The notes under the pieces were generated by a model. The model was not told where the DNA came from, ran no database searches, and was given only the letters and a program-made list of their open reading frames with translations. Below are positions 2,011-50,900 of a stretch of DNA of 64,000 nt, in pieces. The number at the start of each line of letters is the position of its first letter. The stretch's first letter is position 1. Source of the stretch: Arcuatula senhousia (taxonomy: Eukaryota; Mollusca; Bivalvia; Mytilida; Mytilidae); the NCBI GenBank assembly GCA_963971305.1, contig OZ020307.1:59207702-59271701 (forward strand). The letters run 5' to 3'. The translations under genes were made by a program, and so were the position numbers.

Positions 2011-2034
2011 TATTTCAACCACAAACAGACTTAC

Positions 2035-16400: not shown

Positions 16401-18757
16401 AGTTTTATTGGTAGGGGGGGGGGGGGTTATAGATAGGGTAAAGTTATTTAGTCAATCAAAAAGTCAAAGAAATAAAGAGAAAGAATGAGCAGTCAGATGA
16501 TAAGGTGTTGACTGATAACACCTTATTGCCTGACTGTTGTGTTATTCTTTAAAACCTTTTGTATGATTTTTTTTAATAACTCTGCATCTTTTTGGATCAA
16601 GTCTACTTCTTGGCTGTTTAGGGACAATTTTACCCTAACACAACCTCCTTATATAAACAACAATTTAAAAAATCCACAATGGAAAACGAAGTTGTCAGAT
16701 GACCCCTTATAGGGGTTACAGCCCCTTAAAGGCAAAAAATAGTGTTTTTGGCCCATAGAATAAAAACTATTGCAGATAGAGAAAAGATGTCGCTTGCTTA
16801 AATGTTTCCCCTAACACAACCTACATATATGAACAACAATTAAGAAATCCCCATTGGCCCATTGGAAAACAGCATACAGTTGAAGAAAATTTGTATCCAA
16901 ATAACTTGCTTTCAAATTTTTGCTCGAATTAATCTCTGCTTATAATAAGCAATTTAAAGCAATCTGAATGCGTTTCATCTTTATCAAGAAAATGTTAAAA
17001 GATTTTATAGAAGTATTTCATTTTCAGACATTTCAATGAGATGACGAAACAACAAGAAATGAGTCATGTTGTACGACCAAGAACAGTCTCAAGTCCTATC
17101 CCATATGGTTCTCCTAACACATCCAGACCAATATCACCTGGTAAGTCTCAATTCCTATCCCTTATGGTTCTCCTAACACATCCAGACCAATATCACCTGG
17201 TAAGTCTCAAGTCCTATCCCTTATGGTTCTCCTAACACATCCAGACCAATATCACCTGGTAAGTCTCAAGTCCTATCCCTTATGGTTCTCCTAACACATC
17301 CAGACCAATATCACCTGGTAAGTCTCAAGTCCTATCCCTTATGGTTCTCCTAACACATCCAGACCAATATCACCTGGTAAGTGCCAAAGATAACAAAAAT
17401 TTAGCCTGAAATAATAATTGCATTTAATGAGATCAAAGTAGAAAAAAATGTATTTTAATAACTATCAGTATTCAATATTAAAAGGATCTGTTTCTCATCT
17501 TTTTTTCCGTATGGCTATAGATGAACTATTTAATTAAAAGTGTGAATGATAAGACTTTTATATTGCCATTATATATGAAGCTTTAGCACATATGCAAGTT
17601 GTATGGAAAGGTATATTTTAGTTGAATTTACAGCTTCTATAAATGTTTTGTTTGAATAGTTAATGCCACAAATTTTTCAGTTAACTTTTATATAGTTGTA
17701 TTTTGCAAATGTGTAAAATTAGTGTTGATTCCCCCATCCCCCACAAATATAGATAAACAACTATAAAAACTGATCTATTGTACATTTATTAATTGATATT
17801 TTCTCCTCAGGTATGAACTATCCAGCATTTAGTCCACCGAGTCCAATGAGACGGAGTACCGGCAGTACTAGTAGTACAAGTAGTGGAACATTCCATCCTC
17901 CACACCATTTACCTGGTACTTCTCCACCAGTACACACACACATGCAGGTAAATACACATCAAATACACACATGTAAAACATCATGCAGGTCATAAACATA
18001 CAGGTAAATAGCCATCATATATACCCACATGCATGAAAATGCATTAAATATATCCACATAAGGTAATAGAAATACAAGTAGCATAAAAGATAGAATCCAT
18101 ATAGGTGATTGAAACCAACCCTATTTCCTTGTATTAGCAGGGTTGCCACGCATCCTTGAAACCTGGAAAAACCCTTGAATTTCATTTGTCAGTTCAAGGT
18201 CCTGGAAAAGACCTTGAATTTTGAAAAAAATGAAAATATCCTCGAAAAACCCTGGAATTTTCCACTATCAAAGGTTCAAAATTGAACTGTTTCACAAAAA
18301 ATTTCATTGAAAATGACTTAAATACCCTTGAAAAGTCCTGGAAAACCCTTGAATTTTGCAACAACAAAATAGGGGCAACCCTGGTATTAAAGTGCTTGAT
18401 ATCTTTGGTTATCAGTTATATCTTTTATGTTATTGAGTACATTGTACTTTGGGACAAATTTTGTAGTTTACTGTTAATGTGATACTCAATATTCATGCCA
18501 GGCAATTCATGGTTGAACTGATTAACACCATATCTGTTGTTTACAATGTATGGACAAAAGAGTAAGTTCAGTGGGTGCTTCTATAAATTCCAAAATGGCT
18601 GCCCTCTGCACACTTGAGAGGCATTTACAGTGTAAAGATTTCAGCTTTTTGACATTGTTAATGCTTATTTATTTGTATTATCCAGAGACCAAGAACAACA
18701 AACACAGATAAATTTGCCAGACCCAGTAGTTTTCCAGAGAGAAAAGAAACCACCTGA
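7184..18757 (+). CDS. CCDC6: Coiled-coil domain-containing protein 6 (CCDC6)
   Basis: Nine exons join in frame: 7184-7405, 10607-10756, 11166-11294, 12629-12732, 13231-13388, 13794-13950, 17028-17140, 17811-17947, 18686-18757 (1242 nt, 413 aa). The start follows AAA in AAAATGG, and the protein opens [14 protein letters not shown], close to vertebrate CCDC6. Residues from about 28 to 300 form a long coiled coil with hallmark pieces [57 protein letters not shown] and [19 protein letters not shown] (about 215-220) and [12 protein letters not shown] follow, then a Ser/Pro-rich tail. Vertebrate CCDC6 is a phosphorylated scaffold linked to the DNA-damage checkpoint and to CREB1 repression; function here is inferred from homology. 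It lacks the Gly-rich N-terminal insert and the long Pro-rich C-terminus of the human protein (474 aa). Introns hold many repeats. Confidence 0.95.
8208..8427 (-). pseudogene. C-terminal hAT dimerisation domain fragment
   Basis: After an apparent acceptor (TTTATAG) comes [20 protein letters not shown], then [20 protein letters not shown] and a short Asp/Thr tail. The [12 protein letters not shown]...RLS core is typical of the C-terminal dimerisation region of hAT transposases. The RNase H-like catalytic core is missing. Confidence 0.75.
8597..8851 (-). pseudogene. N-terminal fragment of hAT transposase-like protein
   Basis: It starts [20 protein letters not shown], then a Thr/Gln-rich low-complexity stretch, then [18 protein letters not shown], which resembles the N-terminus of KIAA1586/ZNF862-like hAT transposases as I recall them. 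The frame then runs into ILLFHFN and a stop where the catalytic region should continue. Confidence 0.65.
10290..10405. repeat. Fragment of pearl-like family C
   Basis: It starts AGGGCCCCTCATCGAAGATG and CGGACGCCCCATAG, then a GTCCGTCTGTCCGTCAGTC run and GAACACTAAAACTCAAAAAC. This matches the start of the fuller copy at 15486. It breaks off into the AGGAGCGTCGCAGG end of the 6521-type element. Confidence 0.6.
12174..12446. repeat. Pearl-like family A, short reverse copy
   Basis: Reverse of the family at 1-1013: hairpin end with CCCCTGCTCAGAAGAAGAGG, a GTCTGTCTTTCCGTCC run, one core unit (AGTTTTCTCAGTAACTACAT), and the left end CTCACAGATTCCTTGTTGT. It lies in CCDC6 intron 3. Confidence 0.7.
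14699..14970. mobile_element. TTAA-flanked MITE-like element
   Basis: TTAA duplications at 14695-14698 and 14971-14974 flank short inverted ends GGGGGT and ACCCCC/CCCCC, with ACAC/GTGT further inside. It is 272 bp, AT-rich and non-coding. TTAA target sites are used by piggyBac and Kolobok transposases; which applies is unknown. Confidence 0.45.
15215..16326. mobile_element. TTAA-flanked element with nested pearl-like insertion
   Basis: TTAA occurs at both sides (15211-15214 and 16327-16330), with inverted ends GGTGGCTCGAGG and CCCTGAGACACC. A pearl-like element occupies about 15486-16056 within it. No transposase coding is visible. Confidence 0.5.
15486..16056. repeat. Pearl-like element, family C
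   Basis: It opens with a hairpin GGGCCCCGCATC...GATGCGGACGCCC, a CCGTCCGTCCGTCCGTC run, then three copies of a unit of about 170 bp containing GAACACTAAAACTCAAAAAC and ATTTTGAGAATTGGACTTTG, and closes GCCGCGGGGCCCTTTCTGAC. It is non-coding. Confidence 0.75.
17028..17140 (+). CDS. CCDC6: CCDC6 exon 7, abutting a donor-containing tandem array
   Basis: It encodes residues 307-344: [39 protein letters not shown]. The acceptor is TTTTCAG. The first donor (CCTG|GTAAGT at 17141) joins in frame to exon 8 (GT ATG AAC, giving PGMNYPAF). The last 59 bp, including the donor, recur four more times downstream. Confidence 0.88.
17082..17382 (+). repeat. 59-bp tandem array copying the exon 7 end and its splice donor
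   Basis: There are five near-identical units, each containing TCCTATCCC, TATGGTTCTCCTAACACATC, CAGACCAATATCACCTG and GTAAGT. Donors fall at 17141, 17200, 17259, 17318 and 17377, an exact 59-bp period. Only the last is followed by GTAAGTGCC, probably the ancestral intron sequence. Reading past donor 1 stays open until TAG at 17233. As 59 is not a multiple of 3, donor 2 shifts frame, and donors 3-5 include the stop. Confidence 0.9.
18138..18383. mobile_element. hAT-type MITE
   Basis: The ends CAGGGTTGCC and GGCAACCCTG are inverted, and the flanks share GTATTA. The interior repeats CCTGGAAAA...CCTTGAATTTT motifs in both directions. It is 246 bp, non-coding and lies in the last CCDC6 intron. hAT membership is inferred from the CAGGG ends. 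Confidence 0.6.
18686..18757 (+). CDS. CCDC6: CCDC6 terminal coding exon
   Basis: The acceptor is ATTATCCAG. It encodes residues 391-413, [20 protein letters not shown] then ETT and TGA. It corresponds to the SNSPDKFKRPTPPPS part of vertebrate CCDC6, but the human Pro-rich tail that follows is absent. Confidence 0.8.
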   Translation, partial: RPRTTNTDKFARPSSFPERKETT

Positions 18758-21700: not shown

Positions 21701-22290
21701 CTGTTTACAGTCAATAGATCTTTATTTTAGAATTTTAAAACTTTTTCACAAGTATATGCTATTGTGAAATGATAACATTAAAGATTCATTTTCCCCCATT
21801 TCAGTATAACCTTTCATTTATAGCTCTCTTCTATATGTATGGATTGTTGTCTCAAGGAGTTTACTCCTCTTATATTACTTTTATCATCAAATTTATTATC
21901 CGTACCGACCTTTCACATCTCAATGTCAGCTTATTATGACACTTTTAAAGTAAACACCACTTTCTTGAACAAACTTGAAACTATCAAAATTATATTTTAA
22001 GATTCAGAGTTGATGTCAAAGATTTATCTTAAATATTTTACTCAAATTGCCATTTACTTAGAGATGTTTTCTTCTATGCATCATTATGCATTGCTTCGAT
22101 TGGTCAATGATAAGCCATTCTCATATAGACAAACATACTTGCTTATTTCCTTCCTTTTACATGGCCTGTGATTGGTTAGGCCTTATCTGTTGTACATTCA
22201 GACTGATTATTGTGATAATTAATTTGTTATGTATGTGCTAATCTGTTGTATATAAACTTTGTTATGTATCTGAATAAAAAATATCACGCC
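18758..22290 (+). other. Probable CCDC6 3' UTR and downstream AT-rich DNA
   Basis: After the CCDC6 stop there is about 3.5 kb of AT-rich sequence without convincing reading frames. AATAAA-type signals occur near 20310, 22273 (CTGAATAAAAAATATC) and 22357; which is used cannot be told. It includes the diverged copy of the 6521-type element (20299-20515). Confidence 0.4.
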
Positions 22291-25200: not shown

Positions 25201-26573
25201 TATTTTGTTAACAGAATTTATAGAGGAATACAATAAAAAAAGAATGATCAAAATCGGATGAAAATTAAACATTCTACAGACGTTTTGTCAATACACCCAT
25301 TTTAGCCCCTTTTTGTCCTTTTTTCTAAAACGGTAGGGGCCAGAAACCCCAAATGCAATACCAACCTTCCTTTAGTGGCTATAAACATCATATCAAAATT
25401 TTATAACATTTGGTTATACCAACCTTCCTTTAGTGGTTATAAACATCATATCAAAATTTTATAACAATTGGTTAACTACAACTAAAGTTATCGCACGGAA
25501 ACCAACAACGACAACAACGATGACATCGCCATAACATAATAACATCGCAAAAAATTTGCGGTCGTATAAAAAGCTAAATATAAATATATTGTGGTTACTG
25601 TACTCAAAACCATTGCAATTTCCAAAAGACATAATTCACCATCTCTCAACATTTGGGACAGACAGACGAACTAACCCAAATACTTTATACCCCCCTACTT
25701 TCGTAAATGGGGCATACAAATGCAGTCATGGAATTTAGGATTATGGATCTACAGGATTTTATCCATGATTTTGAAATATTCTCATTATATTGTTACAAAA
25801 TTTACAGGACTGAACACAATTTCAGGTCGTGGGCTGTTCCCCTGTGCTAAATTCCATGACTGAAAATGTTGGAAAGCTATGAACAGATGACTTCTATGGT
25901 CATTTGCCACTCTATAGCCTGGCACAAAATACATGTACATGTATAAATGAGCCTGAAAATGATGTATATGTTTATTATAAATTTATAAAAAAAATCAAAT
26001 AACAATCAATAATAAGAAGAAGTACATTGTAGAAATAATGATTGTTTTATGCAAAAAAAAAAAAAAAAATCTTATCAAACATGATTTGTCAAATCAATAA
26101 TAACAAATATAACATAAAAAAAAAAACATTTAGCACTTACAATATAATACTAGCATATCTACAACATATTCAAGTGATTTTGGTGTGTAGCCATTGATTC
26201 ATTTAAAAACTTCAATAATGTCATGGTAATGTATTTCTAATTATCACTCTTTGCTTCATTTAATTTAATTCTTGGACTAAGGTCATAAAAATGTGTAAAA
26301 AAATATATGCCAAATAATTTCCTTTCTGAATCAATTTTTGACTTAATTTTATAAACATACTTGTAAATGGTTATAAATAAGAGCTACATAAACAATTTTA
26401 TTTTTCCTAGATTACTTGGTACAAGAAAAAAGAAAACCATGTATCTAAAGCAATATAAAAACCCAGCTGTATTGAAATGTTGCAGCTGCATACGATGCAC
26501 TTTCAGACAAACCCTTTACCCTTTGGCTTTACCCTGTATAAATCAACATGGAGAATTTTTTAAACAGTTATTT
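22291..26573. repeat. Intergenic repeats between CCDC6 and neutral ceramidase
   Basis: Between the two converging 3' ends lie the pearl-type A fragment (22917-23266), a different truncated element starting near 23738 (TATGTCCCTCCCCTTCCAC, CTGTCCATCTGTCAGTC), and a larger body at about 24220-25712. That body repeats a segment (CCCTAATTTCTCGAAAACGG at about 24525 and 25015, about 490 bp apart) and ends with a GACAGACAGACG run and a CCCCCTACTTTCGTAAATGG hairpin. The remainder is AT-rich, and 25970-26570 probably includes ceramidase 3' UTR. No host gene is seen. Confidence 0.55.
22917..23266. repeat. Pearl-like family A, truncated
   Basis: The left end TTAGCTACTGCTCACTCAGT is followed by two core units with AACAGGAAGTAGATAT, AAAGGACCT and TGAGAAAAATGTT. 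The tetranucleotide run and terminal hairpin are missing. Confidence 0.65.
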
Positions 26574-26922
26574 CTAACCAAGCTTATTGGACAACTTGTT
26601 CTGTCTGAGAACATCATTGTATGATCCATAATTCTGTGGGATTTGGTATTTAGCTGCCAACATATCATTATTCAAGGCTAAAGTTTGTTTCAATTTATCT
26701 TTCAAACTCAATTTCTGGAATTTGTTTACATAGAAATTTTTCGCTGACCTCACTTTAAATGCTGACGATTTTCCTTGGAATGGAGTGATGGTTCCGCCAA
26801 TAGATTTATGGTTGCCAAAGTAACTGATGCGATAAGTTCCTATCTCCTGATTGGCTGGAATGTCCCATGTGATTGTGACCTCACTCTCTCCAAGGAGTGT
26901 ACTTGTTACATGCCAAGCAAAC
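26574..26922 (-). CDS. ASAH2: Neutral ceramidase last exon with lineage-specific C-terminal tail
   Basis: It encodes residues 635-750. The first part (FAWHVTSTLLGESEVTITWD, IPANQEIGTYRISYFGNHKS) is the conserved immunoglobulin-like end, which stops in human soon after SPAFEVVTI. Here SSAFKVRSAKNFYVNKFQKL is followed by a Lys/Gln/Asn-rich tail ending YNDVLRQNKLSNKLG and TAG, about 50 residues of unknown role. Confidence 0.9.
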
Positions 26923-29900
26923 CTACAAATTTGAGATAAATTTCAAGATCTGTTCATCATATCTATACATATTAGATGGAGCCTTACTGCTGAAGTGAAT
27001 TTTTGTGTGCAAGCTGAATGTTTTGCATCTTCAGAATCTGCAACTTTTCATTTTTTAACAGTATAAATAGGTTTGGTGGAAAGTTCAGATTAAAGTCAAA
27101 CTTTTAAAAATTTTAACTGGATTATTCATTAATGAAAGCAATGAAGCTAATTATGGCATTAGATTCATTATTTTCACAATTGGTCATAAAACTACATGTA
27201 TACAGTAGAAAAGTTTTTTTTATGTCACAGTGACAATAAAATGATGACAACTAAACAGTGGAATTGAGTTTAAAACTAGAAAAACTGTGAGCCGCAGCTC
27301 ACAAATAAATACCCCCCACCCCCCAAAAAATTAATCAGATAAAATTTAGAATAGAAGATGCATATCTACATTATGTCACAAAGATTGTGTGTAGGTTTCA
27401 TGAAAATCCATCAAGGGGTTTAGGAGGAGTTGCAGATAAGAGATGGGCACCCCCATGTAGTCGAATGGCTGAGTCCATGTATTGCTATGGGAAACCCCAA
27501 AATCATTCTGATCAAACTTTCTAATAGTAAGTGCACATCTATATTATGTTACAAAGATTGTGTAAAAGTTTCATGACAATCCATCAAGGGGTTTAGGAGG
27601 AGTTGCAGATAAGAGATGGGCACCCCCATGTAGTCGAATGGCTGAGTCCATGTATTGCTATGGGAAACCCCAAAATCATTCTGATCAAACTTTCTAATAG
27701 TAAGTGCACATCTATATTATGTTACAAAGATTGTGTAAAAGTTTCATGACAATCCATCAAGGGGTTTAGGATGAGTTGTGGATAAGATATGGGTACCCCC
27801 ATGTAGTTAAATGGCTAAGTCCATGTTTTGCTATGGGAAACCCCAAAAATCATTCTGATCAAATTTTAAAATAGTAGATGCACATCTACATTTTGTCACA
27901 ACAATTGTGTGTAAGTTTCATGAAAATCCATCAAGCGGGTTTCGGAGGAATTGCGGATAAGAGATGGGTACCCCCATGTAGTCAATGGCTACTTCCATGT
28001 TTTGGTATAGGAAACCCCAAAAATCATTCTGATCAAATTTTAAAATAGTAGGTGCACATCTACATTATGTCACAAAGATTGTGTGTAAGTTTCATGAAAA
28101 TCCATCAAGGGGTTTAGGAGGAGTTGCGTATAAGAGATGGGTACCCCCATGTAGTCAATGGCTAAGTCCATGTTTTGGTATAGGAAACCCCAAAAATCAT
28201 TCAGATCAAATTTTAAAATAGTAGGTGCACATCTACATTATGTCACAAAGATTGTGTGTAAGTTTCATGAAAATCCATCAAGGGGTTTAGGAGGAGTTGC
28301 GGATAAGAGATGGGTGCCCCCATGTAGTCGAATCGCTAAGTCCATGTTTTGCTATGGGAAACCACAAAAATCATTCTGATCAAATTTTAAAATAGGTGCA
28401 CATCTAAATTATGCCACAAAGATTGTGTGTAAGTTTCATGAAAATCCACCAAGGGGTTTAGGAGGAGTTGCGGATAAGAGAATTGGGTACCCTGAAGTGT
28501 AACGGAAGGATGGACGGACGGACTATATACCCCCCACTTTTGAAGTGGGGGGTATTAAAATACTTTAAAAAATATCTCACAAAATAAGTGCTATTTATGA
28601 TTAAAAGATGGTTCAATTCAATAAAGATCTTGCTATGGTTAGGGTTAAGGGTTGTGATTTCTTGTATTCTTTGTATTATTGTCTTTTGTATTGACTGGTT
28701 TGTCTTTTTACTTTTTAGACTTCTGACATTTGTATGCCTCATTGATACAGTACTTCTTTAGTTCCTTAACAAATACCCAGTTTTGAGTTCTTACTTTGTT
28801 TGCCAATGAGCATCTGTGTAATTTTGTCTCCATACTCCATCTGGGCCAAGTACATCTACTGATAGAAAGGTACTCTCAGGCTGAAAAAGATAATCACTTA
28901 TTGGAAACTTACTTTATCAAACCAGATATGAAATTGTCTATCATTGACAAAAACGTTTCACCAAATATTTTGTCATCTAAGAGTGTATGAGGCAAATGTA
29001 TTGAAAAAACATTCAATTTTAGAATTGTTTTTCTACACACATTTATCTATTGTATGAAATTAAGTATTAAATGTTTAAAAAGAATAGCAGATTTGGAGAA
29101 ATCCATGAGGTGAAACAGATATAGGATGAGGAATCCTTTGTCATTAGTAACTAAGTCAATGTTTTTGCTTTGAGAAACCCTAGATAGCAATCTGAGAAAA
29201 TAATAAAATAGGATATCTACATTATGTCACAAAGGTTGTGTAAAAGATTCATCTAAATCCATCAAATAAATTAGGAGTAGAGGACAACAATATGACTTTA
29301 GTGGTCCCTACATGTCACTTCACATTACACAGGCAAAGGACTCGATAATTAACAAACAAAGACACAGACTGGAAAAAATGTATGACTTTGAGAGATAACT
29401 GAACCTTAAATCAAGTGACCTATGAAAAACAATTCTTTTAACTTACTTTTCTGTCATTCCTAGGGTTTGCACCAATAAACTTTACTACAACAGTAACTCC
29501 CTATAATAAAACAATAAAATAAAACATTCCATCAAAAGACCTCAATACACATAATCATATGACTTAACCTGCAATTATTTTAAGTTTTGACTCATTTAGG
29601 TTGCATGCTTAAGAATAATGTAATCTTCTTTATAAATATCCCAGAGCCTCCATTGAGAATTTCCTTATTACAAAAGTATTGAACTAAAAGCAGTTTATGT
29701 TAATTTCAGAAACTTAAATATCCATTCAAAGAAAACAAATGTCATTTTGTTTTTGATAAAAATTATCTCAATTGTAATCACACTTGACCTGTTGGGACTA
29801 TAAATCATTAAAATGTCTGTCTATATTGTTCTCAGTACCATTAGAAGCAAACTTATTTTACAAAAAAAAGTCAATCTGGGACTATGACAAATCTATACTA

Positions 29901-32900
29901 CCTGATTATATGAAGATTGGACATCCTCTGTTGGGTCTCCATAATTCTTGCCAAAAGGTGCATGATCAAAGACCACAGGTAACATGAAGGACAGCTGTTT
30001 GTCTAAAAGGTTGGGTGGGTTTGGTCCTGGGGCCACTGTTTGATTCTAATAAAAAAAAGTTTTCATAACGTACATTGTACTATTTGTGATTAACAAAATT
30101 CTGTGAAACTATTATATGTAATTCAAAGAATGATATTTGAAAAAAAATACAATATTCATGTGACGACATGAAATGTTGATGACGGCAAAGCCACATGGCA
30201 AAATATGGTCTATGGGCTCATAGATGAAAGTGTTTCAGCCAAACACAAAGCTTGATGTACTATTATGAAATTAAACCTCTTTCTTCTCCTAAGACAACTA
30301 ATTACCAAACATGTAGGTGTCATTTAAAATTAATGAAAAAGGGTACCACTATCCTGAAATTCAGTATAATCTTAAATGCACTTGTACAAATAAATGTGTC
30401 TCCTACAGACATGGTCTATAAACATACTAACCTTGGCCATAGCCTCAGCTAACATGACATAATTCTGTATATAAGCTTGTAAGGTGTGTGGTCCAAAAAT
30501 GGTGGATCCTCCTTCATATCTCTGTTCCTGTAAAATACATGACGGTTATCATTATACAGGAAATTTAACCTTGGTATGTGCATTTTAGTTAAGTAGTACT
30601 CCACCTAAGAATCATGCAAAATTGAAGAAAAGTGATTCATCGATAAAAAGGCTACAGTGGTTTATTTTTAACAAAAGATAGTTCAAAGTATACAAAATAA
30701 GAAATAAATAACAATTTGCTCATAACTGTCTGGTCCTGGGAGAAATCTTGCTATTTTGTTACAATGGTTTCTATGGAAATTATTGACAGTTTTAAGAGTT
30801 ATCTCCCTTTCTTACAATTTTCCAATGCATTCTATATATTTTTTTTCTTTCAGGACCAATGCTTGTTTGGAAAAAGAGTACGAAATATCGAATCAGGGTG
30901 CTAGTAGGAGTAACATATCAAAAATAAAGTGGTGTAGGCTTTCCACCCATGAATCGCTTTTTGCATGGATCTTATAAAAAGTGGTACTTAATTCTTTAAA
31001 AAAAAACTTAGATACTGTGAGCTACTGCTCTTTCAGTGTACCCCCGCTACGCCCAAAATTAGCTATGTCAGTAAACTGGAAGTAGATATCTAACAGACCT
31101 TATTTCAATACTCGCAATACAGAACCTCATACTGAACTATCTAATTCCTGTGATGAATAGTGGTGGAAAAACCCGTAACAAAAAAATTCAACAATTTACC
31201 AGAAATCTTGAAAATTAACTGAGTTGGTCAACAGGAAATAGAGATCTAACAGACCTAATTTTGATACTTGTGATAAAGGACCTCATAATGAAGCCATATA
31301 CCAAATTTTAAGTCTCTGTGATATGTAATTATTGAGAAAAATGTTACGAAAATTTTCAACAATTGACTAATAATGTTGAAAATTGACTAAGTCGGTACAC
31401 AGGAAGTAGATATCTTAGAGACCTAATTTTGATACTTGTGATAAAGGACCTCATTAGGAAGCCATATACCAAGATTCATGTCACTATGAGTTGTTGCTGA
31501 GAAAACTTATGAAAGTAATGTTGCCAAAGGACAGAGGTAAATCAGTATACCCCTTCTTCTTCGAAACAGGAATACATTTACTAACAGAAAACAAGTAATC
31601 CATAGGCTGATATAGGATACTAAGGCTTAAACTATGGAGAATGAAAATACATGCATTTAACCTTTAATCATAACATTTGGAAATGGATTAGCAAAGGACC
31701 CAGCTTTTAACTTTTGCATGTAAGAAATACAAATCTTACTTGATATTCTTCATAGGTAGTAGTATATCCTGAGTAATCATTAGATAGTCCAGCAATCACT
31801 GTCACAGTATCTGATGGGAATCCATTGGTTATCAGGGTCTGAAATAATAAGTAACCAGAGTCTATAAAAGAATACATTAAAGTTGTGAATACATCTAATT
31901 TCTGTGGGAAACAGCATATGGTATTAATCAGTAAGTTAATTTATATAATAGGGAACAAGAGGCTCCCAGGAGCCTAAATATCTCACCTGACGTAAATACC
32001 TAAATTTTCATGCTAAGACCACAAAGAATCAATATCGTGTTCTTCAGACTTTAACTTTAAAATAATAGCTCATGTGGACCATCTGTCCAGGTGAGCTAAA
32101 AGAGGGGTGAGCATTTTTTTTAAATTAAGTTTTTTCTGAATTTCTGATGTTTAAGAGCAGAAGATTTTTCTTAAGACCAGAGACACATTTGAAAAAAATT
32201 TTAGAAAATTTTTTCTTGTTTTCATGGTATAAATCTGATGCAAGCAAGCGATTTGTTCTTTATTTTGAAGAAAATAACTGAAATCAAATAAAAAATGAGT
32301 TTCATAAGTAAAACAAGTTGTTCTCAGTGTTTTATGACTTTACCAACTAATTCATAAATTGTATGAGCAAAAAAGAATTGCTTTGAGTTGGTTTTTTTTT
32401 CTCTTCTGAAGAGTTGCTGCCCTGGTTTCTATCAATTGGTACAGACAGACCATAACAACAGACATGTATGTCCCCAAATCTTTTACTTTTGTTTTCTTAG
32501 CAAAATTTATTGCACAGAACTTCTTAGAAATATCTGATTAAAGCAACAAACCATACCTTTTTGACAGTCTCCATAGTTCTTCTACCAGACATAGTTCTGA
32601 AATGATAAACATAATCATTTATATAGGAGAAATGACAAAACAAAATTGAAGGGATTTTCCTCCCATGACAAAACAAAATTGAAGGGATTTTTATCCCTTT
32701 AAATAAGCACCAAATATGGGCACCTTTCCCAATGGCAAAAACTTTTTTTTCACAATTCTGACTTAAATTTCCCAAATATAAATTTTCATACATACAAATA
32801 TAAATTTTCATACAATTCTTTTGACATGGATAAGCTAATTTTTCATGTTTGACTTTAAAGCTAAATCTTATACATGTACTCTATTTCTATTGGAATTACT

Positions 32901-35900: not shown

Positions 35901-38900
35901 GTATAACTCCTACAAATAGAATTCAGTGTAAGTATGACAGAAATCTACTGGTCCTAACAGTTTGATTTGGGCAGTTTGGTATAACTCCTCCAAATAAAAT
36001 TCAGTGTAAGTATGACAGAAATCTACAGGTCCTGACAGTTTGATTTGGGCCGTCTGGTATAACTCCTACAAATAGAATTCAGTGCACAAGTATGACAGAA
36101 ATCTACTGGTCCTGACAGTTTGATTTGGGCCGTCTGGTATAACTCCTACAAATAGAATTCAGTGCACAAGTATGACAGAAATCTACTGGTCCTAACAGTT
36201 TGATTTGGGCAGTTTGGTATAACTCCTCCAAATAAAATTCAGTGTAAGTATGACAGAAATCTACAGGTCCTGACAGTTTGATTTGGGCCGTCTGGTATAA
36301 CTCCTACAAATAAAATTCAGTGCACAAGTATGACAGAAATCTACTGGTCCTAACAGTTTGATTTGGGCAGTTTGGTATAACTCCTCCAAATAAAATTCAG
36401 TGTAAGTATGACAGAAATCTACAGGTCCTGACAGTTTGATTTGGGCCGTCTGGTATAACTCCTACAAATAAAATTCAGTGCACAAGTATGACAGAAATCT
36501 ACTGGTCCTGACAGTTTGATTTGGGCCGTCTGGTATAACTCCTACAAATAGAATTCAGTGCACAAGTATGACAGAAATCTACTGGTCCTAACAGTTTGAT
36601 TTGGGCCGTCTGGTATAACTCCTACAAATAAAATTCAGTGCACAAGTATGACAGAAATCTACTGGTCCTGACAGTTTGATTTGGGCCGTTTGGTATAACT
36701 CCTCCAAATAAAATTCAGTGCACAAGTATGACAGAAATCTACAGGTCCTGACAGTTTGATTTGGGCCGATTGGTATAACTCCTACAAAAATAAAATCATA
36801 GTAAGTACGACAGAAATCTACTGGTCCTGACAGTTTGATTTGGGCCGTTTGGTATAACTCCTACAAAAATAAAATCATAGTAAGTACGACAGAAATCTAC
36901 TGGTCCTGACAGTTTGATTTGGGCCGTTTGGTATAACTCCTACAAATAAAATTCAGTGCACAAGTACAACAGAAATCTACTGGTCCTGAAAGTTTGATTT
37001 GGGCCGATTGGTATAACTCCTACAAAAATAAAATCATAGTAAGTACGACAGAAATCTACTGGTCCTGACAGTTTGATTTGGGCCGTCTGGTATAACTCCT
37101 ACAAAAATAAAATTCAGTGTAAGTATGACAGAAATCTACTGGTCCTGACAGTTTGATTTGGGCCGTCTGGTATAACTCCTACAAAAATAAAATTCAGTGG
37201 AAGTAAGACAGAAATCTACTGGTCCTGATAGTTTGATTTGGGCCGTCTGGTATAACTCCTACAAAAATAAAATTCAGTGTAAGTATGACAGAAATCTACT
37301 GGTCCTGACAGTTTGATTTGGGCCGTTTGGTATAACTCCTACAAAAATAAAATCATAGTAAGTACGACAGAAATCTACTGGTCCTGACAGTTTGATTTGG
37401 GCCGTTTGGTATAACTCCTACAAATAAAATTCAGTGCACAAGTACAACAGAAATCTACTGGTCCTGAAAGTTTGATTTGGGCCGATTGGTATAACTCCTA
37501 CAAAAATAAAATCATAGTAAGTACGACAGAAATCTACTGGTCCTGACAGTTTGATTTGGGCCGTCTGGTATAACTCCTACAAAAATAAAATTCAGTGTAA
37601 GTATGACAGAAATCTACTGGTCCTGACAGTTTGATTTGGGCCGTCTGGTATAACTCCTACAAAAATAAAATTCAGTGTAAGTATGACAGAAATCTACTGG
37701 TCCTGATAGTTTGATTTGGGCCGTCTGGTATAACTCCTACAAAAATAAAATTCAGTGTAAGTATGACAGAAATCTACTGGTCCTGACAGTTTGATTTGGG
37801 CCGTTTGGTATAACTCCTACAAAAATAAAATCATAGTAAGTACGACAGAAATCTACTGGTCCTGACAGTTTGATTTGGGCCGTTTGGTATAACTCCTACA
37901 AATAAAATTCAGTGCACAAGTACAACAGAAATCTACTGGTCCTGAAAGTTTGATTTGGGCCGATTGGTATAACTCCTACAAAAATAAAATCATAGTAAGT
38001 ACGACAGAAATCTACTGGTCCTGACAGTTTGATTTGGGCCGTCTGGTATAACTCCTACAAAAATAAAATTCAGTGTAAGTATGACAGAAATCTACTGGTC
38101 CTGACAGTTTGATTTGGGCCGTCTGGTATAACTCTTACAAAATAAATTCAGTGTAAGTATGACAGAAATCTACCGGCCCTGACAGTTTGATTTGGGCCGA
38201 TTGGTATAACTCCTACAAAAATAAAATCATAGTAAGTACGACAGAAATCTACTGGTCCTGACAGTTTGATTTGGGCCGTTTGGTATAACTCCTACAAATA
38301 AAATTCAGTGCACAAGTATGACAGAAATCTACTGGTCCTGACAGTTTGATTTGGGCCGTCTGGTATAACTCCTACAAAAATAAAATTCAGTGTAAGTATG
38401 ACAGAAATCTACTGGTCCTGACAGTTTGATTTGGGCCGTCTGGTATAACTCCTACAAAAATAAAATTCAGTGGAAGTAAGACAGAAATCTACTGGTCCTG
38501 ATAGTTTGATTTGGGCCGTCTGGTATAACTCCTACAAAAATAAAATTCAGTGTAAGTATGACAGAAATCTACTGGTCCTGACAGTTTGATTTGGGCCGTT
38601 TGGTATAACTCCTACAAAAATAAAATCATAGTAAGTACGACAGAAATCTACTGGTCCTGACAGTTTGATTTGGGCCGTTTGGTATAACTCCTACAAATAA
38701 AATTCAGTGCACAAGTACAACAGAAATCTACTGGTCCTGACAGTTTGATTTGGGCTGTTTGGTATAACTCCTACAAAGTAAATTCAGTGTAAGTACGACA
38801 GAAATCTACTGGTTCTGATAGTTTGAATTTAGCTGTCTCTTTGAGAAAAAAAAAATTATGTAAGGCCATACAAAATTAAATTTTAGCTTCTCAGGTCATT

Positions 38901-41900
38901 TTTATCAAAAACAGATGATGCAGGGAGGCTTCTAATTTATTTTTTTATTGGTCAATAAAATGGATGAGGCAACTTTTAACATTGTTAACAAAAAAAGTGA
39001 TGAGGCAGATAATTTATATTTTTATTTTATAAAATAGCAATAACAAGGGACAATGAGGCTGCCTCAGAACAGATGAGGAATGGGACAAGAGAAGCTAAAT
39101 ATTTTTTTTTTGCCTAAATATGTTATTATTATCCCCTTTTTAGTTAATCTGTCTCTGTGTAATAGATCTATTCTCATAAGGTAACAAATATCAAGTAGCA
39201 AGTTAATAACTATAGAATATATTCAATTTCAATTTCAGCTTAAGTGATACAAAATAAGACCTACCATAGCCTTTTTGTACTGATTTTCACCTATAATCCT
39301 GGTGCTCTCAAACATGTCCTTTCCTGGACCAAAAGCTACACACATTTCATTCTGAAAGCAAGAAACAAATCAGATGTATACAATGTATTTGTAATATGAT
39401 GTCAATAAGTCAATTGGTTTTAGGAGTAAAATCAAGCTATATCATTGGTTCCATCTTTAAGAAAGCAGAGCTCTCAAATATCTACTATGGTTAAACTAAT
39501 AAAATATTTAATAATTATCTTTCCTTTACATATACCTTCAATTTTCTTGTCAAAAACAAGAACTAACCTTGTTCCAAGACAAAAATGTGTGTGATATCAT
39601 TTTAGAATGTCTAGTATATAATCAAACAATGTTACTGTAATTTCATTTTTGATGTATACATATTTTCCATAGCCATAAAAGATGAACCCTGGTAAGAAAC
39701 TGTGAAAAATTCTGTACTCATCACTTAATGTGATTTCATTATATTTCTTGTGGTATTAATTTTTGTGGTTTTTGTGTGCGAACCCAAGAAAGTTGAATCC
39801 AGACAAAAAGGAAATTCAACATTGCATACTGTAGACTTCAGAACCACAAATCCGCGAACCATTGAACTGTAACTTGTTTATCAATCCACGTGACGGAAAT
39901 AAAAGAATGCACAGTATATCATTATTATTTCATACCCTGCCATTACAGGTGCTATGTACTGGATCACATGGTTTTCCTGTGTCTAAACATTTAGGTCCAG
40001 CTGTATTGGGTGATACATCTCCTTCATTAGCCTGGGCAAAGGCAGCTACAAATTTTCCTGATTCCTAAAAACACAAGAAAAATGCATACTAAAGAACAAA
40101 ATTTGATTCCCATCTAATAATTAAATTTGCAATGATTTCAATAATGAATGCTAAAATTACCAATTCATAAAGCCACAAATATGCATCTATTCAAAGTCAA
40201 TGAAAATTGATTCCTACAAACTTAAGTATTTTGACAACTTTTAATGAATTTTTATATTCTTAGGCTAGCAAATATGCATTAAAAAAATCACAAGACGCAT
40301 AATCACACGAAAGAAAAGTCTCAAAAACTACTAATTGTATCTTCATATTTTTTTGACATAATTTATATCGATCATCATTTGATATATATCCACCAAAAGT
40401 TTTCAATTATAAGGCAAGGTTTAAAGTGCAACTAAAACGTCTATAACAACTTTATTTCATTTCATAGATCTTAATTTTCTCAGATCAATGCAAAAAACCC
40501 GACTTGATTCCGATGACAAATAACAAAGATATTGGCAATTTAGTGTTAATTTCTTAAAATCTCACCTTTATAACTTCCGCTTTCGCGTCACTAATGCCAC
40601 TGACCGTGCTACGTCAGAGGGGGAACCGATTAATTTGTTTACACTTGTTACAATAGCAAACGGTAGTTTATCTTTACAATTTATTAATAATGAAATGATA
40701 ATTAATGCATCCAGAAGTAAAATACATGTATGTGATATAAAACATGTAAAATAAATATTTAATCACTATGTAAAAACTTTATAGATTGTGAAGATGAAAA
40801 AATGATAAAAGAAAATCATAATTAAAAGAAGCCTATTCTTTCAAAAACTTAAAAGTCAGAAATGTGACAGGCCAGTAATGATACTGATCATATTTGAGGT
40901 CTCTCGCATGAAATTTAGCTTTGAGCATATGTGTGTCTATTCAAAATTTCCGTGGCTTTCAGATATTTTCGATGTAACCGACAGGAAGCTAAGACATCAA
41001 TTCACACATTCAACATTATTCCATTGTTTCCTATATTCTAGTATATACAGATTTAGGAGACCATATAGTTTTACTCTTGTCCGTCCGTAATTCCGTCCGT
41101 GCATACGTCTGTAACACTTTTGTTAAGTTCTTGGTGAAGGTTATAACTGTGATACATTTTAAGAACAGGGGCCATCTGTGGCTTCTAGACACATTTTCTA
41201 GTTTAATGTTGGATTTCTAGGAAATTTGACACCAGATGATTTAAAGTTCGTCGGACAATTCATGAAAAAAAGCTTCAAGCGGGCGGAATTTGTATGCCCA
41301 TCAACGAACGTCTTGCGCATATTAGGCCCTGTTCGATTACAAATAATCTGAAACCGGATTGTGAAACCGTCACGTTTGTTTACCCGAATCCGAAACTCGA
41401 TTTTTTTGGTTTTACGAAACCATGAATCTTGCCGCTAAGCAGGATTTCATAGATTCAAGATGGCGGCGAACTCGACCGAATGACCAGAAACCTGTTCAGA
41501 AACAATGCAAAATTGATCATAAGTGTTCCTGCATCCATTTTATATGCACTATTTATACATTCACAGGTCCATGATACATTAAAGCTGTCTTTTGATCTTG
41601 TTTTACATGTTTTTTTGGTTTCAGACCGTGTATTCTCTCTTTGTCACAAGCACTGAGGCGGAGCCGGTCGATACATATTTGATTATTCCACTATTATACT
41701 TATTCTGTTGAAAAAAATGCTAATAAACTAAAAATAAATTGATTACATGTTTTCAGGTGCGTTTGACTTCTGTGAAATTTTATCAAAAATCTAATTCCTT
41801 GATTAGCCTATTTCGACGGTCCACTTTTTAACAAAATATTACGAACTTTCAATAAAAACTTCATTTATTAATTAATACAAAGCTGCTTAAAGTTATCCTA

Positions 41901-44900
41901 TTTTTTTTTATAGTTTACTTCCATATTATGGCTTGAGTTGAACCTTAAAATCTTCTTTAATTTCAGAAGTTGTCTTCATCTTTTCATTTAACATGTGAAA
42001 TCAAACTCAATATCCCGGAGCAGCAAACCATATTGTATCCACAAAAATGAATGTTTAGTATTTGTCTTTTACAGATATAAGAATGTCTTGTTTGTATGCT
42101 CAAATGATTAGCATACACGTTGTCTGTATAGTTATGGTTTATTCCCGGGTTTATTACCAGTATAATCATATTAGGTCACTGTTACCAGCTTTGATAGTTT
42201 AATGAAAAACACTGAGATATCAGAGATAGTGGATCACAACCACTTCAAAGCAGCAGTTCTGGTGTTGTTTTTGTTGTAATTTATTCGTGTAGTCTTATTT
42301 GATTTTATTTTCAATTGTAGCATCATTTAAAATGAACATGACATATAAGACCAAAACTAGTGTGATATCACTACATTTAAGAAGCGCTTGTCCCTAGTCT
42401 GAAATATTTATAAAGGTTTACTTTCTCCAAAATAGAAATGCCGGGAATAGTGGTCTTTTTTGGTTAATCTATCATTGCTATATTTGTTGTAGTACCATTC
42501 AATTTCGTGTATATATAGAGAGAATTAATATTTTTCGTTTTAGATTCTGATAAAATCATAGACAGAGATTAATATAAAGTACATCGGAAACTTTGAAGAG
42601 AAAGTTCAAGAGTACGTGAAACCGCCTAGAGGCAAACGGGTGGATCCGCATAAGTCGGCTCGGGGAATTCAACTTGCCATGTCTGGGCGACGGACGATTG
42701 AGGGAATCATAGTCTTCATGCAGAGCTAGATCAGCAACAGTAATCTATGTCCATCAAAAACTTATAATCTTTTGTAATGACTATAACATACAATAAAGTT
42801 GATACACCCTGGTATATGATGATGTTATACATTTGACTATGTAATCATTTATGGACATTTGAGATTGATTCTCCAAGTTCGGTTTTTTTGTTATTACCTT
42901 TATTAACCATGAATGGTATCCAAGAGTAGACAGAGGTTGTACACACTCTTAGTTATGATATGAAACTCTATACTGGTGCACATTCAGATCCGTTCAAAAT
43001 ATTAAATAGCAGCTTCCAAATAAGTTATTAGAGAGCCGGTGGTGTAGTGGTTAACGCGTCGGGCTACTAACACCGTGGTTCGTGGTTCGATCCTCGTCAG
43101 GGGTGAAAATTTCATGAACCTATTTTCCGACTCTCTCTTGACACCATTTGCGAGGATGGTCTCAAGAACCGATGCTAGTCCTTCGGAAGGGACGAAAAAA
43201 GGTTGTCCTGTGTATGGGAGAGCAATACCCCATGCACGTTAAAAACCCCTTTGTAGAGTTCGATAAGAGTAGGCTCAATGGGGGCCGCTACAAAGGCCAC
43301 ACTCGCAATCTGCTAGCTGGAGAGGGATTAATATAAGCATTAAGCTTGTTTCCCAATCCAGGGTAAATAAATATGTTTAAAGTAAGTTATTTGAATACTG
43401 ATCTTCATATAAGAGAAAAGTAAAGTTTAGATTTGGCAATCGAGCGAGCGCAAATTATGCTTGTATCTTGGTCGCTGATGTTTCTTGTCATATTTTTACT
43501 TGAACTTTATCTATAAAACTGTGGCTTATTCAACATGTTTGTTTTGTTGTTTTTTTTCAAACTTTTTCTTTTCATTCAATTCTCGACATCTGTCAATCAT
43601 GTCTAGTGACTTAACTCCGTCATCTAAGCTAAACTTATCGCCCACATTCCAGGTTTTACAGCCTTAAGCGATAAATTCATGAAATATACAAATCTATGAT
43701 GGCATATATACAATTGTTGTTTCAATCGTCTTCCAAAGTCATATGTCTTTCATGTAGATTTCTCTAATAAGAACGGTACAGTAACGTTTTACACTCATAC
43801 TGAATATTTTTGAAACAACACAATAACTTGTAAAGAATCCTCGCATTCATGAATCAGGGGTTTTACTCCCACTTGTTCTTTGTAAATTTGTCAAAATTAC
43901 AAGAAAAAAAATATTTTCACGTTTTGCCTATACAAGACTGATCCAATGCACTGGACCCCAAAGGATGAAAATGCAATAGTATTCGAATATGACGAACATG
44001 GAATAATAAAATAGGGAATAAAAATTATGGTTAATCATTATCAAAAAGTAAATTTTGAAATGCTGTATGCATATTTCATTGAGTAACCTCCCATCAGCAG
44101 CATTTGAAACATAAAGCTAAAAGGAAAAAAATCAAAAGTACAAATCTACATGTGTATGTCTCTTTGTTTTACACAGGGTACACTCGTGGCTATTGTTTGG
44201 TCTGGCAAACTGAAGTCCATTATACATGTGCATTAACAAAGAGATTGTACATAGGTGGACTTATCCTAGTCTGCTAGCTTCCCATTTCTCCTTTTGTTAT
44301 CCCCAATGTCAATGGCCGTACACCGTTATTATTTTACATATAGCCGGTTATACCTCATGATAACAGGGACTATCGTTTACCGCTGCCATTTTGTGACCGC
44401 TGCATTGCAAACTGAAGACAGACAAAAATTACGTCGCACGGTTTATGTTTAAAGTCCTACAGAGATAAAAGTTTGGAGTGGCTTAAATTTATTAGTATTA
44501 ATAATAGCCCCAAATGCGTCTGGATTAAAAAGAATAGGCGGGGTTTTAACGGCTATAGTCCTTTTTTTTTTAACAATGTGTGATTTTTTACATAGTAAAT
44601 GCACTCACAGAATTTTATTCTATCTTCACTTTGCCAGCGTTAATGGTAGCCGAAAATGCCCCCTGGAACATTTGTTGGCTGACAATTTAGAATTTTATAT
44701 GGACGATTTCATAGTTTTGGTGTGGTCCTAAATACAAAAGTGGTGATCCCGGAGTGGGATACTCTGGGAGGATTTTAATCATAATGGTTGTGAAAGAAAC
44801 TAAAGACAATAATATTTTGTAAACCCAGTAATAAGTCACCTTAACATCAACGAAAGTCTGCCCGTTTCATAGCTACAGAATATTTGGAATACTCAACAGG

Positions 44901-47900
44901 TGACTGGTCATGAAACTGTCACATCATTATTTAAAAATCTGAAGCTACTATCAAATGCTACGAAAAACAGCATTTGTACTTATGTTACACAAAATCCTAC
45001 ATAAAAATAAATGACACACTGCTTCCAGACTATATTAGGACAACATCGAGACAGATAAGGCAAACATACCATAGACGATTTGTAAGAGTTGGCTCAACTG
45101 AAGAACAATACAAGAACACTGAGTAACCATTTAAGACTGGAAAATACGACTTGCCACCAAACAAGTCTTGGGCCAATGCAAGACGATAAGCAGTGACCTA
45201 TGGTCATGTTGAAGACTGCTTGCTGTTTCCGTTGTGATTTTTTAAATCACTGTCTGTTTATGTTTGTTGTGTCGCGTACACTCATTCCACATCTCAATAT
45301 CGTCTATTCTAGACATCGAGGACTACGAGTCATTCAAGACCAGAGTCGTAACTCATCTTTAATATCATTTTAGCGTTTTAGTATCAAGGGGGTGTGTTTC
45401 TGAGGGCTGAACACTTCAGTTGGATAGATTTTCAGTTCATTGAATATATGCCTTGAATCCCCTTTCCCTCCTCAATTGCATGTGGGTGCCAATGATCATT
45501 TCCAAACCTTTTCTGCTTTTAACCTTAGTATAACTTTATACACGCACTATTAATAGGAAGTATGTGGAGTAAGGAAAGCCATAGTTTAGATTGTTAATTC
45601 AATAAAAAATCGCACACCCATATTTGACCAAGATTGGTTTTCAAGAGGGATACCTACATTTTGATGTGCTTCACACACCATATTGCTTACAATTTAAGCT
45701 AAATCTTGCTTACCAATCGTGACAATTATTTATTATGACATATTTTTGCAGTCCTTGATCAGGAACTTGAGAAAACGCTTTAGACAAATCAAAATGAAAT
45801 ATTGCGTAAAACTATCAAAAGACCCATGATACAACTCAGTTCAACATACGGAGGCTTTTATAGAGCATATATACATGTATAGCCAAATATTCAAGCAGGC
45901 AAAACCTGTTCTTTAATATATTTCATTGTTTTTATCTAAAAAAAAAACCAAAGCCCCATGTCCCACTAAATCACCGTGGGTATACAGTTTCTTTGTTCAA
46001 TTTCATGAATGGGTGTGTTTTTTAATTACTGGCGGTACCCCTACCACTATACCATAATTCCGATTAAGTGACCCCCCCCCCCCCCCCCACCGTAAGGAAA
46101 ATGAAACTCGGTTAAAAAAAAAGAAAAAAACAATGAAAAACTAAACTTTTCAAACGGCAATGTTGTTAGTCATTTATAAAAGTTGTCTGCCTCAATGGTA
46201 ATAATTTGACCTTAATATTTTTATCAAAAAGAAAATTTAGCGTGATATGAAACAGTGAAACTATAAACGGTTTTTCAATCTGAAATCCGGTTTTAGTTTC
46301 ACTGTTCGATTACTACATAACGGTTTCGCAAAACTGGATTGTAAATCCGGTTTCAGGTTATTGGTAATCGAACAGGGCCTTAGTGTCCGGGGCCGTCTTA
46401 TGTTATAAAAAGTTATGAATACACAATGTGATGTTTTTGTTTATTGTTTACAACTATAATTATTAAAGGTAATAAATAAGCATACTTACATATTTGTGTT
46501 TACTTAGTATTTGCCAAAACCACACAATAGAGAAGTTTTAGAAGAGAAAATCTAAATATGATCTGATGTTATTTTAATAAATACTTTTTACTAATTAAAT
46601 ATATTGAAAAAATTATTTCTGAATTTAAATTTGTTTGTTTGCGGAGGACAACAAAACACGATGCTCTAGGATATGCGTGATGTTTTAACATGTTTTTTTT
46701 ACTGTAAACTTAATAAAATTTTTGATATGAACATTATATGCCAAACACAACAGTATAAAGACATTTATTGCAAATACTGTAGAATCAAGGAATTTATTCA
46801 TTTTATTTCATTTTATTATTTTTCTATTTCAATACGATAATTAAACATAATTTGAGAAGATGCTCGAGTTTAAAAATTGCTTGTCCCCAAATTGTGAATT
46901 GCCCCCCCCCCTACGGTGATATATTGGTAATCTAATTTGGTTTCACTTCACACCTGCGTTTGTTTAATCATACTCAGCATGGGTTATTAAATCAGGTAAT
47001 TATCATGAGGACTGGAATCCTGACACCGGTCTAATTCCGACATAGACCTGCATATTTGACATATATGATTTAAATTAACACTTTGAACAGTAAAGACAAC
47101 ACAACTGTTTAAAATTGATATGTTCCTTTGATTGCATCATGTACGTGTACTGAATGCTGCGGTAAAAACTTTAAATTTTGTACAATATGACAATTATTTG
47201 ATTAAATCATATGATTTAGATTTAACCAAGGAATTCGAGTACTTTAATTCCTTGATTTAACATTTAATACAAATTTTAAAAAGCTCTTAACTTCATTCCT
47301 GTGATGGCCTATCTTTTTAGAATATTATCTGATGTAAAATGTATTGTTAGAATTTGGGAAATGTATAAGCATTCGTTGGGTATTTCCTTAAAATATTTAT
47401 GTAAAAAAATACCACCGAAATTATTTATATTTCATTGCTAATATCTTTAATTCCCCTTTCAAAAACGCATTCCCACTATACTAGCAAACTATCTCGGTTC
47501 CCCCTTGTGCGTCACTTCCGGTAAGCTCGCAAATAATTCTTTTCCGGAAATATCGTTGATTAGATTTTGAAAGGTGCGAAATTTTGCACTTCAAACACTC
47601 ATATCTCCGTTATTTGTCAACGGATTTTGATCGGATTTTTTGCGTTGATCTTAGAAAATTTAAAACTTTTAAATAAAATCAAGTTGTTATGATCGTTTTA
47701 GTTGCACTTTAAAAATTCACAAACAAGATTTCAACGAGACTGAAACCTCAGTAGAATAAATGCTAAAGAAATCAACCAAAATGTTTCAGAGTTAGACATG
47801 TAACAATTTTTATAGGGTGGTTTAGAAGTTATTAGAGAAATAAAGCTACTTTTGGTTTGTTTGTTTTTTTGTTTTGCTGCATGTTTTGTAAAAATCTTAC

Positions 47901-50900
47901 AAAAGCGGGAAATTTTCCTCCATTTTTGTCCATCTCTGCCAACAGTGAAGCGTACCCTTTATTGTCACTACTGATGAGCTGGTTGGTGTTGTTCATACTA
48001 GTACAATGAACTGCATACCAACTGTGTAAAATAACAAAATGCTTATTTGAATGCATTGTTCACTTTCTAATATTTAAACCAATAGAGTGTCATTCTTATA
48101 TAGACCATGCCCACTAACAAAGGAAACCATGACACCAAGCTGTGTGTAAATTGCAATATACATGCATGCACCGAGTCAATGTCACTGTTACTTTAACACT
48201 AAAACAAGTGACAGCATAATATGTTTTGTGCACAGAAACACCAAATTGACAAGACATTTTGTCTTGCAGTAAAGGTCCACAGAAAACACAAAAATGAGAC
48301 ATAAGAATTGAAATAGTTCATGGTTGCCTGAGGTCTATAGTCAAATTTAACATGGGTTGGCATTAAGTGAAAAGCAGCAGAGCAAGGAGAATGAAAAAAA
48401 AAACAATGGATACTTATGTTAGTACAATCTCCAATAAACTATGGAATAGAATGAAGATAATTACCTAATGAGACCAATATCATTTTCTTGTTCATCCACT
48501 ATCTTCAGAACAGTCATATTTTTATCAACATCATACTTGTATCTAAAATTTAAAAAAAGAAATGCTAATCATTTATTGCTGATTAAGTCATTATATGCAC
48601 TTTCTATAACAAACAAGAGGCTCCCAGGAGCCTGAATCGCTCACCTGACATATGTGCCTGAAGTAAAGGTTTTTAGGCAAAATCTATTTGACATTGAAAG
48701 GATCATAAGTTTAATAAGGGGGTTATCTGAAAATATGGTGGATCTTAAGGTGCTGATCACTTTTTTTCTCAATCAAAATTCAAAAATCTGTCACCCTTTT
48801 TGAGTTATTAGCAAAAAAATGCAGTTTAACCCAATGTTCTATTTTTAGCCACAGTGGCCATGTTTTACAACCAATCAAAAATCCCAACATCAGTTCTATA
48901 CACCTAATGCTAATAAACAACTATATCAAGTTTGGTTCCAACTGAATTTAAAGTGTCAGAGGAGTTAACGTTTTCAATGTAATGAGGATATACTTTGTAA
49001 ACATGGTTAAGTCCCTTCTCAAGTGAATGTCTTACCCAACATTATAAAAGTGGTAAGTTTAGGTTTATTTTACCTAGCTCTCTCCTCTGCTGGATTCTGT
49101 AGATAAGCTGTAGGACTCCTGTTAATATTTACCTAGCTCTCTCCTCTGCTGGATTCTGTAGATAAGCTGTAGGACTCCTGTTAATATTTACCTAGCTCTC
49201 TCCTCTGCTGGATTCTGTAGATAAGCTGTAGGACTCCTGTTAATATTAACCTAGCTCTCTCCTCTGCTGGATTCTGTAGATAAGCTGTAAGACTCCTGTT
49301 AATATTTACCTAGCTCTCTCCTCTGCTGGGTTCTGTAGATAAGCTGTAGGACTCCTGTTAATATTTACCTAGCTCTCTCTCCTCTGCTGGATTCTGTAGA
49401 TAAGCTGTAGGACTCCTGTTAATATTTACCTAGCTCTCTCTCCTCTGCTGGATTCTGTAGATAAGCTGTAGGACTCCTGTTAATATTTACCTAGCTCTCT
49501 CCTCTGCTGGATTCTGCAGATAAGCTGTAGGGCTTCTGTTAATATTAGTATCCAGGAGCTCACCATTGTTAATGTACATATTCCCAGGTCTCTGGTTATT
49601 GTGGGCTCGTTCTATACTCTGTTCCAAACAGAAAATTTATATGAAAAAAGACAGGAAGAAGAGGTTATTCCAAAATAAGTTTGAACAATTTAGCTATCTA
49701 TTTCTATTTTTAAAAGATTCAAAACAGTTAGCATCTCAATGAGTGGTCAAATTAGGAAGTTCTGAAAGCCCAGTTTAAGTTACTAAAGGCAATTAGACTT
49801 TATAAGCTAAAACGTTGATCAGTTTTTCTATTACTTTTACTTTCTATACGGTTTTAGTATAGCAAGTACATCACCTTAAAGCTATGCTGTTCTAAAAGTC
49901 AGATATTTTTGACTGGTTTCCCATCAAATTTCTGTTTGAAAATCTACATGTTTACATCAGTCGATAGATGCTTCTTAGCTAGCTGTCAGTAACTTCGAGT
50001 GTTTTCAAGAGAGTATCTCTACATCCCATTAATTTCTTATTGTCCTTTTGTCTCAGGTACTCTCTTGTTGAATTGAACTTCTATCGATTTGATTTTTACT
50101 GTGTTAGTTTGTGCTTTGCTATTAACTATCAATAGGGAGAGGTTGGCGCCAAAAAAATAGTTTAACCCTACCACATTTTATATGTGCCTGTCCTAAGCCA
50201 GAAGTCTTTATCAAAGCTTATGTTTGTATTTCGTCTTATTTATGTGAAATGTTTTTTTTTTGTCAAGAATAGGGTCTTTCATTGCACTTTAGGATTGGGC
50301 TTGAATCATATGTAGTTTATTTTTAATTCAGGGCCAATTGAAAAACAGTGAGCAGCGACCACTGGTCACATTGAAGGCTGCTGGCTGTTTCCCATTGTGG
50401 ATTTTTTAAATTGTTATTAATATTGTAGGTTGTGTCGCGTACACTTATTCCACATCTCATAATCTTCTATGTAGAGCTCTCAAACATTGTGAAATGACTA
50501 ATAGGATGTCGTCTTGATGTTCACTGGATAACATTTGCGTCAAAAGTTTTGATGGAAATAGTGTGTCATCTGATTTTCCAAATGAAATCTGATTTTTACG
50601 TCTTTTCAAATGAAAGTCTGATGCACAATTCCATGTTTTGTTAAAAAGACCTCCATGCTCAGTATACTAACCTTAACAACACCATCAACAATAGCATCAA
50701 ACGTCTCTTTAACAAATCCTAGTGATGTGATGTCATACAACAGGTACTGATGGAATCCCCCAGGACCAGAATGGGTATGGATACCAGTAATACACACATT
50801 TCTCTCCGTATAAAGATTCCCATACTTAGCCATGAGTCTTTTGATTATCTGAAATGAGACCAAAATTTAAAATTCATTTTTTTATTCATTATGATTTTCT

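Follow-up and report, generated by a model that had tools for sequence, protein, structure and literature searches.

Minisatellites termed 'mirages' have been described in amphioxus, in which the exon-intron boundary itself is repeated in tandem, either at the 5' or at the 3' edge of the exon (PMC3087553, PMC3902484). According to these reports mirages are found in Adh3, in the globin genes BflGb6 and BflGb9 and in troponin C, the troponin C case and similar repeats in PGBD5 having been added by the second report (PMC3902484). Mirages are described as undergoing concerted evolution within clusters and as leaving regular splicing undisturbed (PMC3087553, PMC3902484). In human segmental duplications, internal tandem repeats at exon-intron boundaries are reported to alter intron ends (PMC2812944). 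Bivalves are described as carrying Helentron-borne, satDNA-like arrays, short tandem arrays that are dispersed in the genome (PMC7492417). For the human CBS gene, the sources list a 31-bp VNTR, c.1444_1467+7, with alleles of 16-21 copies, and a 68-bp junction duplication, 844_845ins68. Zhuo et al. reportedly described, in 2007, introns derived from tandem arrays.

The DNA analyzed here, referred to as the window, is a stretch of 64,000 nucleotides (64 kb) from the mussel Arcuatula senhousia. Exons were mapped from reading frames and splice signals, and tandem arrays were located with TRF. Two genes of the window host the arrays of interest. The neutral ceramidase gene (26574..61207, minus strand) consists of 19 exons with an intact reading frame of 750 amino acids; its product matches the solved neutral ceramidase 4wgk (E = 2.3e-209), and the best two among the proteins listed are ASAH2 of Mytilus edulis (76%) and an unnamed product (78%). 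The CCDC6 gene (7184..18757, plus strand) was modeled with exons 1-8 placed and with the last exon and the gene end approximate. Its product matches PF09755 (E = 3.8e-119), and exons 2-8 show 96% identity to Mytilus coruscus CCDC6. A third gene, on the minus strand at about 2000-5300 of the window, contains exons with DUF7802 (PF25085).

Gene models, TRF and unit alignment together identified three tandem arrays with a unit spanning an exon-intron boundary, at two donors and one acceptor, so that 5' as well as 3' exon boundaries are represented. CCDC6 exon 7 (17028..17140, plus strand, true donor after 17140) overlaps an array at 17085-17382 (TRF: 59 bp x 5.1, 98% matches). In the ceramidase gene, exon 4 (49491..49618, minus strand, true donor after 49491) overlaps an array at 49069-49546 (TRF: 59 bp x 8.0, 96% matches), and exon 9 (35564..35668, minus strand, true acceptor before 35668) overlaps the longest array, at 35610-38826 (TRF: 80 bp x 40.5, 91% matches). 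The original prediction had placed five copies of 59 bp at CCDC6 exon 7 and eight copies of 59-61 bp at ceramidase exon 4, and both TRF and the gene models agree in place and size. At ceramidase exon 9, where about 40 copies of roughly 78 bp had been expected, we found 40 acceptors, 39 intronic ones and the true one, with a unit of 78-81 bp. The unit had further been read as an exon end plus its splice site, repeated at two donors and one acceptor, and this composition was recovered in all three arrays.

The CCDC6 unit of 59 bp consists of 56 exonic bases followed by GTA and is present in five copies, copies 2-5 lying inside intron 7. At the break, AGT is common to exon and intron, leaving AGT after every unit, so that the donor reads GTAAGT, a core kept in 5/5 copies. 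Ceramidase exon 4 has eight units, six of 59 bp and two of 61 bp, with copies 2-8 inside intron 4. Here the unit comprises 54 exonic bases plus GTAAA, AA being common to both sides at the break; GT is present in all eight donors and GTAAA in seven, the remaining one reading GTTAA. The exon 9 unit contains about 58-59 exonic and about 19-22 intronic bases, AG is in register in 39 of the 40 acceptors, and a degenerate partial copy marks the far intronic edge of the array. All three units are thus lopsided, with 54-59 exonic bases and little beyond a minimal splice signal.

Within the exon 9 array, the copies are organized as a six-copy higher-order repeat of 478 bp, and copy identity is highest at lag 6 (0.940; all other lags between 1 and 18 give 0.901-0.932). 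Intronic copies are 0.946 identical among themselves, while the coding copy is 0.912 identical to them. The boundary units 1 and 39 have nearest-relative identities of 0.962 and 0.926, respectively; for inner units the nearest relatives mostly reach 0.975-1.0, exceptions being unit 8 (0.925) and units 26 and 36 (0.962). The six-copy pattern shows block-wise copying in this array. It also bears on the idea that the arrays are assembly errors with falsely multiplied copies, to which the identity of CCDC6 copies 3-5 would lend itself. In the exon 9 array the many variants in their higher-order arrangement argue against a simple artefact, whereas the CCDC6 sequence provides no such argument. At exon 4 the copies carry private changes, and two of them share a 2-bp insertion. 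In addition, the authors who described the similar PGBD5 repeat of the lancelet state that resequencing speaks strongly against such an error there (PMC3902484). Taken together, we consider an assembly origin highly improbable.

For each array, the original prediction had also put the true junction on the edge facing the exon, and conserved protein sequence is indeed found there in all three places. Joining CCDC6 exons 7 and 8 at 17140 yields SRPISPGMNYPAF, as in Mytilus coruscus CCDC6 (P0001). The ceramidase exon 4 junction yields ERARYKYDVDKN (cf. ERARYKHDVDKN in P0121, ERAQYKYDVDKN in P0122 and ERARYNYDVDKN in P0128), and the exon 9 junction yields GPVDFRHTYVDM, where P0121, P0122, P0126 and P0128 read GPVDFRH(T or S)YVDM. 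When the alternative sites were spliced in silico, every one of them gave a shorter protein (exon 9, 39/39; exon 4, 7/7; CCDC6, 4/4, the latter in a model without the last exon). According to the gene models, the full frame is kept by the exon-side junction only, at all three arrays. Splicing must therefore mostly pick the exon-side junction, since any other site shortens the predicted protein. The location of the junction at this edge follows from a duplication across the edge combined with selection for the reading frame, and no extra mechanism is needed. Coding and intronic copies also differ at ceramidase residue 347, which is AGA (Arg) in the coding copy and TGT (Cys) in 39/39 intronic copies. 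Among 120 homologues listed, this position is Arg in 59, Cys in none and another residue in 61; Arg is present in 15/15 selected bivalve-like homologues (13 named, 2 unnamed), and the 4wgk alignment has Ala.

Judged from the sequence, the extra exon-edge copies are decoy ladders within introns, as had been suggested, with all alternative sites leading to shorter predicted proteins. Such ladders might nevertheless be used, providing alternative isoforms or tuning expression by diverting some transcripts to decay, and the splice cores are mostly kept, as described above for CCDC6 (GTAAGT), exon 4 (GTAAA) and exon 9 (AG). However, this retention may only reflect the youth of the copies, and a use as isoforms is at odds with the shortened protein obtained from each alternative site. 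Moreover, 240 listed proteins were scanned for 9-residue words occurring more than once, a weak test that would miss copies read in other frames, and none of the homologues was recognized as containing an inserted edge copy. Repeated words occurred in 16/240 proteins; 11 of these have them in the coiled coil of CCDC6, and the other 5 are long ceramidase-type proteins. A functional role of the ladders thus appears very unlikely.

The window is rich in other tandem repeats. A catalogue of ungapped clusters (period 20-400, at least 70% identity) contained 22 entries, compared to 3, 0 and 2 in three ten-base block shuffles at 70% identity; hence, chance does not account for tandem repeats of this kind. 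Fifteen of the 22 clusters were compared with the remaining window sequence; nine of them have relatives elsewhere and six, including the three edge arrays, are single-locus. For eight arrays with a period of about 148-177 bp (210-973, 15503-16018, 27290-28409, 31113-31536, 34116-34544, 52390-53252, 54543-55530 and 55812-56324), relatives occur at other places in the window, and some of the eight adjoin GGAC-type microsatellites. These eight recall the Helentron-borne satDNA-like arrays described from oyster (PMC7492417). They raise the question of whether the edge units, too, are mobile satellites that inserted at exon edges. This is extremely improbable, because each edge unit consists of exon and splice-site sequence from its own locus, and a BLAST search (E up to 1e-6) revealed no copy of the three arrays elsewhere in the window. 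Several further repeats were observed. Two arrays in ceramidase introns (51137-52194, 174 bp; 59980-60449, 146 bp) are single-locus, without a relative elsewhere in the window. The same holds for a 54-bp two-copy repeat (94%) between genes, at 23622-23770. In the ceramidase intron that precedes exon 13 (32557-32596, minus strand), a 33-bp two-copy repeat at 32620-32710 comes near the exon edge without crossing it.

The original prediction took three such arrays in 64 kb as a hint at a special process. Overlap of clusters with exon edges was evaluated against uniform placement, using 52 placed edges and 10 approximate edges of the third gene, with cluster periods set by hand; omitting the 10 approximate edges gave somewhat lower P values. 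For all 22 clusters, 1.86 overlaps were expected and three observed (P = 0.28). Among the 12 clusters with a period of 20-100 bp, 0.48 were expected and again three observed (P = 0.010), and for the five clusters with a period of 50-100 the expectation was 0.29 (P = 0.002). All three arrays with a period of 20-100 and at least three copies are on exon edges (P = 0.0002, the most favourable subset). The six single-locus arrays among the 15 compared gave an expectation of 0.42-0.51 (P = 0.005-0.009); when the seven short arrays left out of that comparison were added, the expectation was 0.58-0.69 (P = 0.016-0.027), the ranges denoting tests without or with the approximate edges. All of these subsets were picked after the data had been seen, and the excess of arrays at exon edges within the window is suggestive only. 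Overlap thus exceeds uniform placement in the post hoc short-unit subsets but not significantly in the clusters as a whole, and these figures do not establish a special process.

We also scanned 51 exon edges over 2 kb on the intron side. Three hits were the arrays, one was an explained match and the rest were weak. In comparison to the best of 31 control sequences, three edges scored higher by 1-4 points, one was equal and 43 were below. No clear older, decayed array was found within these 2 kb at the other 48 of the 51 edges. The CCDC6 exon 4 acceptor was rejected as an array edge; its match at 11157-11215 is the start of exon 3, which codes for a similar coiled-coil stretch. CCDC6 exons 3 (11166-11294) and 4 (12629-12732) have similar starts and apparently represent an old exon duplication.

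A distinct process might favour duplication across exon edges, through transcription, R-loops, splice-factor binding or repair at donor-like sequence, and such arrays would then be over-represented in the genome. The overlap of the short-unit subsets, in particular 3/3 and 3/12, speaks for it, as does the minimal intronic share of the units. With 3-6 bases at the donors and about 19-22 at the acceptor, the joint chance of such shares under uniform placement is about 0.001-0.003, in a post hoc test with limits set by hand. Against it stand the P value for all clusters, the post hoc nature of both the subsets and the share test, the small number of only three events, and the fact that 48/51 tested edges have no such array. 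We therefore regard a distinct process as unlikely.

Very probably, the arrays are minisatellites of the mirage type, which arose by ordinary duplication across an edge, were tolerated since the exon-side junction works, and expanded by unequal exchange or slippage. In this scenario, one short tandem duplication per array would have happened to span the exon edge. At the breakpoints of the two donor arrays the sequences match over 3 bp and 2 bp, which is compatible with slippage or with end joining at very short homologies, although matches of this length are also common by chance. The exon-side copy would have kept both splice signal and frame, turning the extra copy into intron and making it tolerable. 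Unequal exchange or replication slippage could then have added further copies and homogenized the inner ones, while the coding copy would have stayed under selection as the intronic copies expanded. Transcripts from the decoy sites would be expected to undergo nonsense-mediated decay. Hairpin-driven slippage was considered as a cause and rejected, eight DNA folds of one or two units being ordinary (z-scores -0.51 to 1.01); known RNA families were not detected in the window at gathering scores. Some observations do count against ordinary duplication, namely the short-unit edge arrays in excess of uniform placement and the lopsided unit, which uniform placement leaves unexplained. The lack of decayed arrays at the 48 other edges is a further point, as steady birth and decay might leave some. 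In addition, Arg at ceramidase residue 347 is not universal, since 61/120 homologues and 4wgk have a different residue.

One could go further and take exon edges in this particular bivalve lineage as a preferred birthplace of minisatellites, which would start from a near-fixed parcel of about 54-59 exonic bases plus a minimal splice signal (3-6 bases at a donor, about 20 at an acceptor). We consider this quite unlikely. If the parcel were general, one breakpoint would be determined by the splice signal itself, or by the complex that binds it while the gene is transcribed, and mirages would then be a readout of a splicing-linked process of DNA duplication. Surveyed across a whole genome, the composition of such units could show in a simple way whether tandem duplication is guided by splice signals. 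Likewise, ladders of near-identical splice sites provide a natural system for studying splice-site choice by position.

No earlier case of a mirage in a mollusc was recognized among the open-licence papers listed, and the arrays are of a known kind, apparently in a phylum for which no earlier report was found. Human segmental-duplication repeats, as reported, are similar in being minisatellites at exon edges, but they frequently remain part of exons or give rise to new introns (PMC2812944), whereas the mussel arrays are predicted only to lengthen the intron. The Helentron-borne arrays (PMC7492417) are described as dispersed and mobile, in contrast to the three edge arrays, each of which is confined to one locus within the window. 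The CBS VNTR comes close in that its name denotes 24 coding plus 7 intronic bases, which makes it a donor ladder to which the intron contributes minimally; it differs in being human and in its shorter unit of 31 bp. In CBS ins68, by the account available, the more distal of the two copies is used, unlike what is predicted for the arrays described here. The amphioxus mirages, as far as their descriptions go, share with our arrays the boundary-spanning unit, the occurrence at both types of edge, and AG or GT kept in many but not all units. They belong to another phylum and to other genes, and their splicing has been reported, while the mussel arrays are known from the sequence of a single haplotype. 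The exon 9 array, with its 40 acceptors, is larger than the amphioxus BflGb6 arrays, for which six and three units are described in the two haplotypes. Three such arrays within 64 kb of a bivalve genome suggest that mirages reach further than amphioxus.
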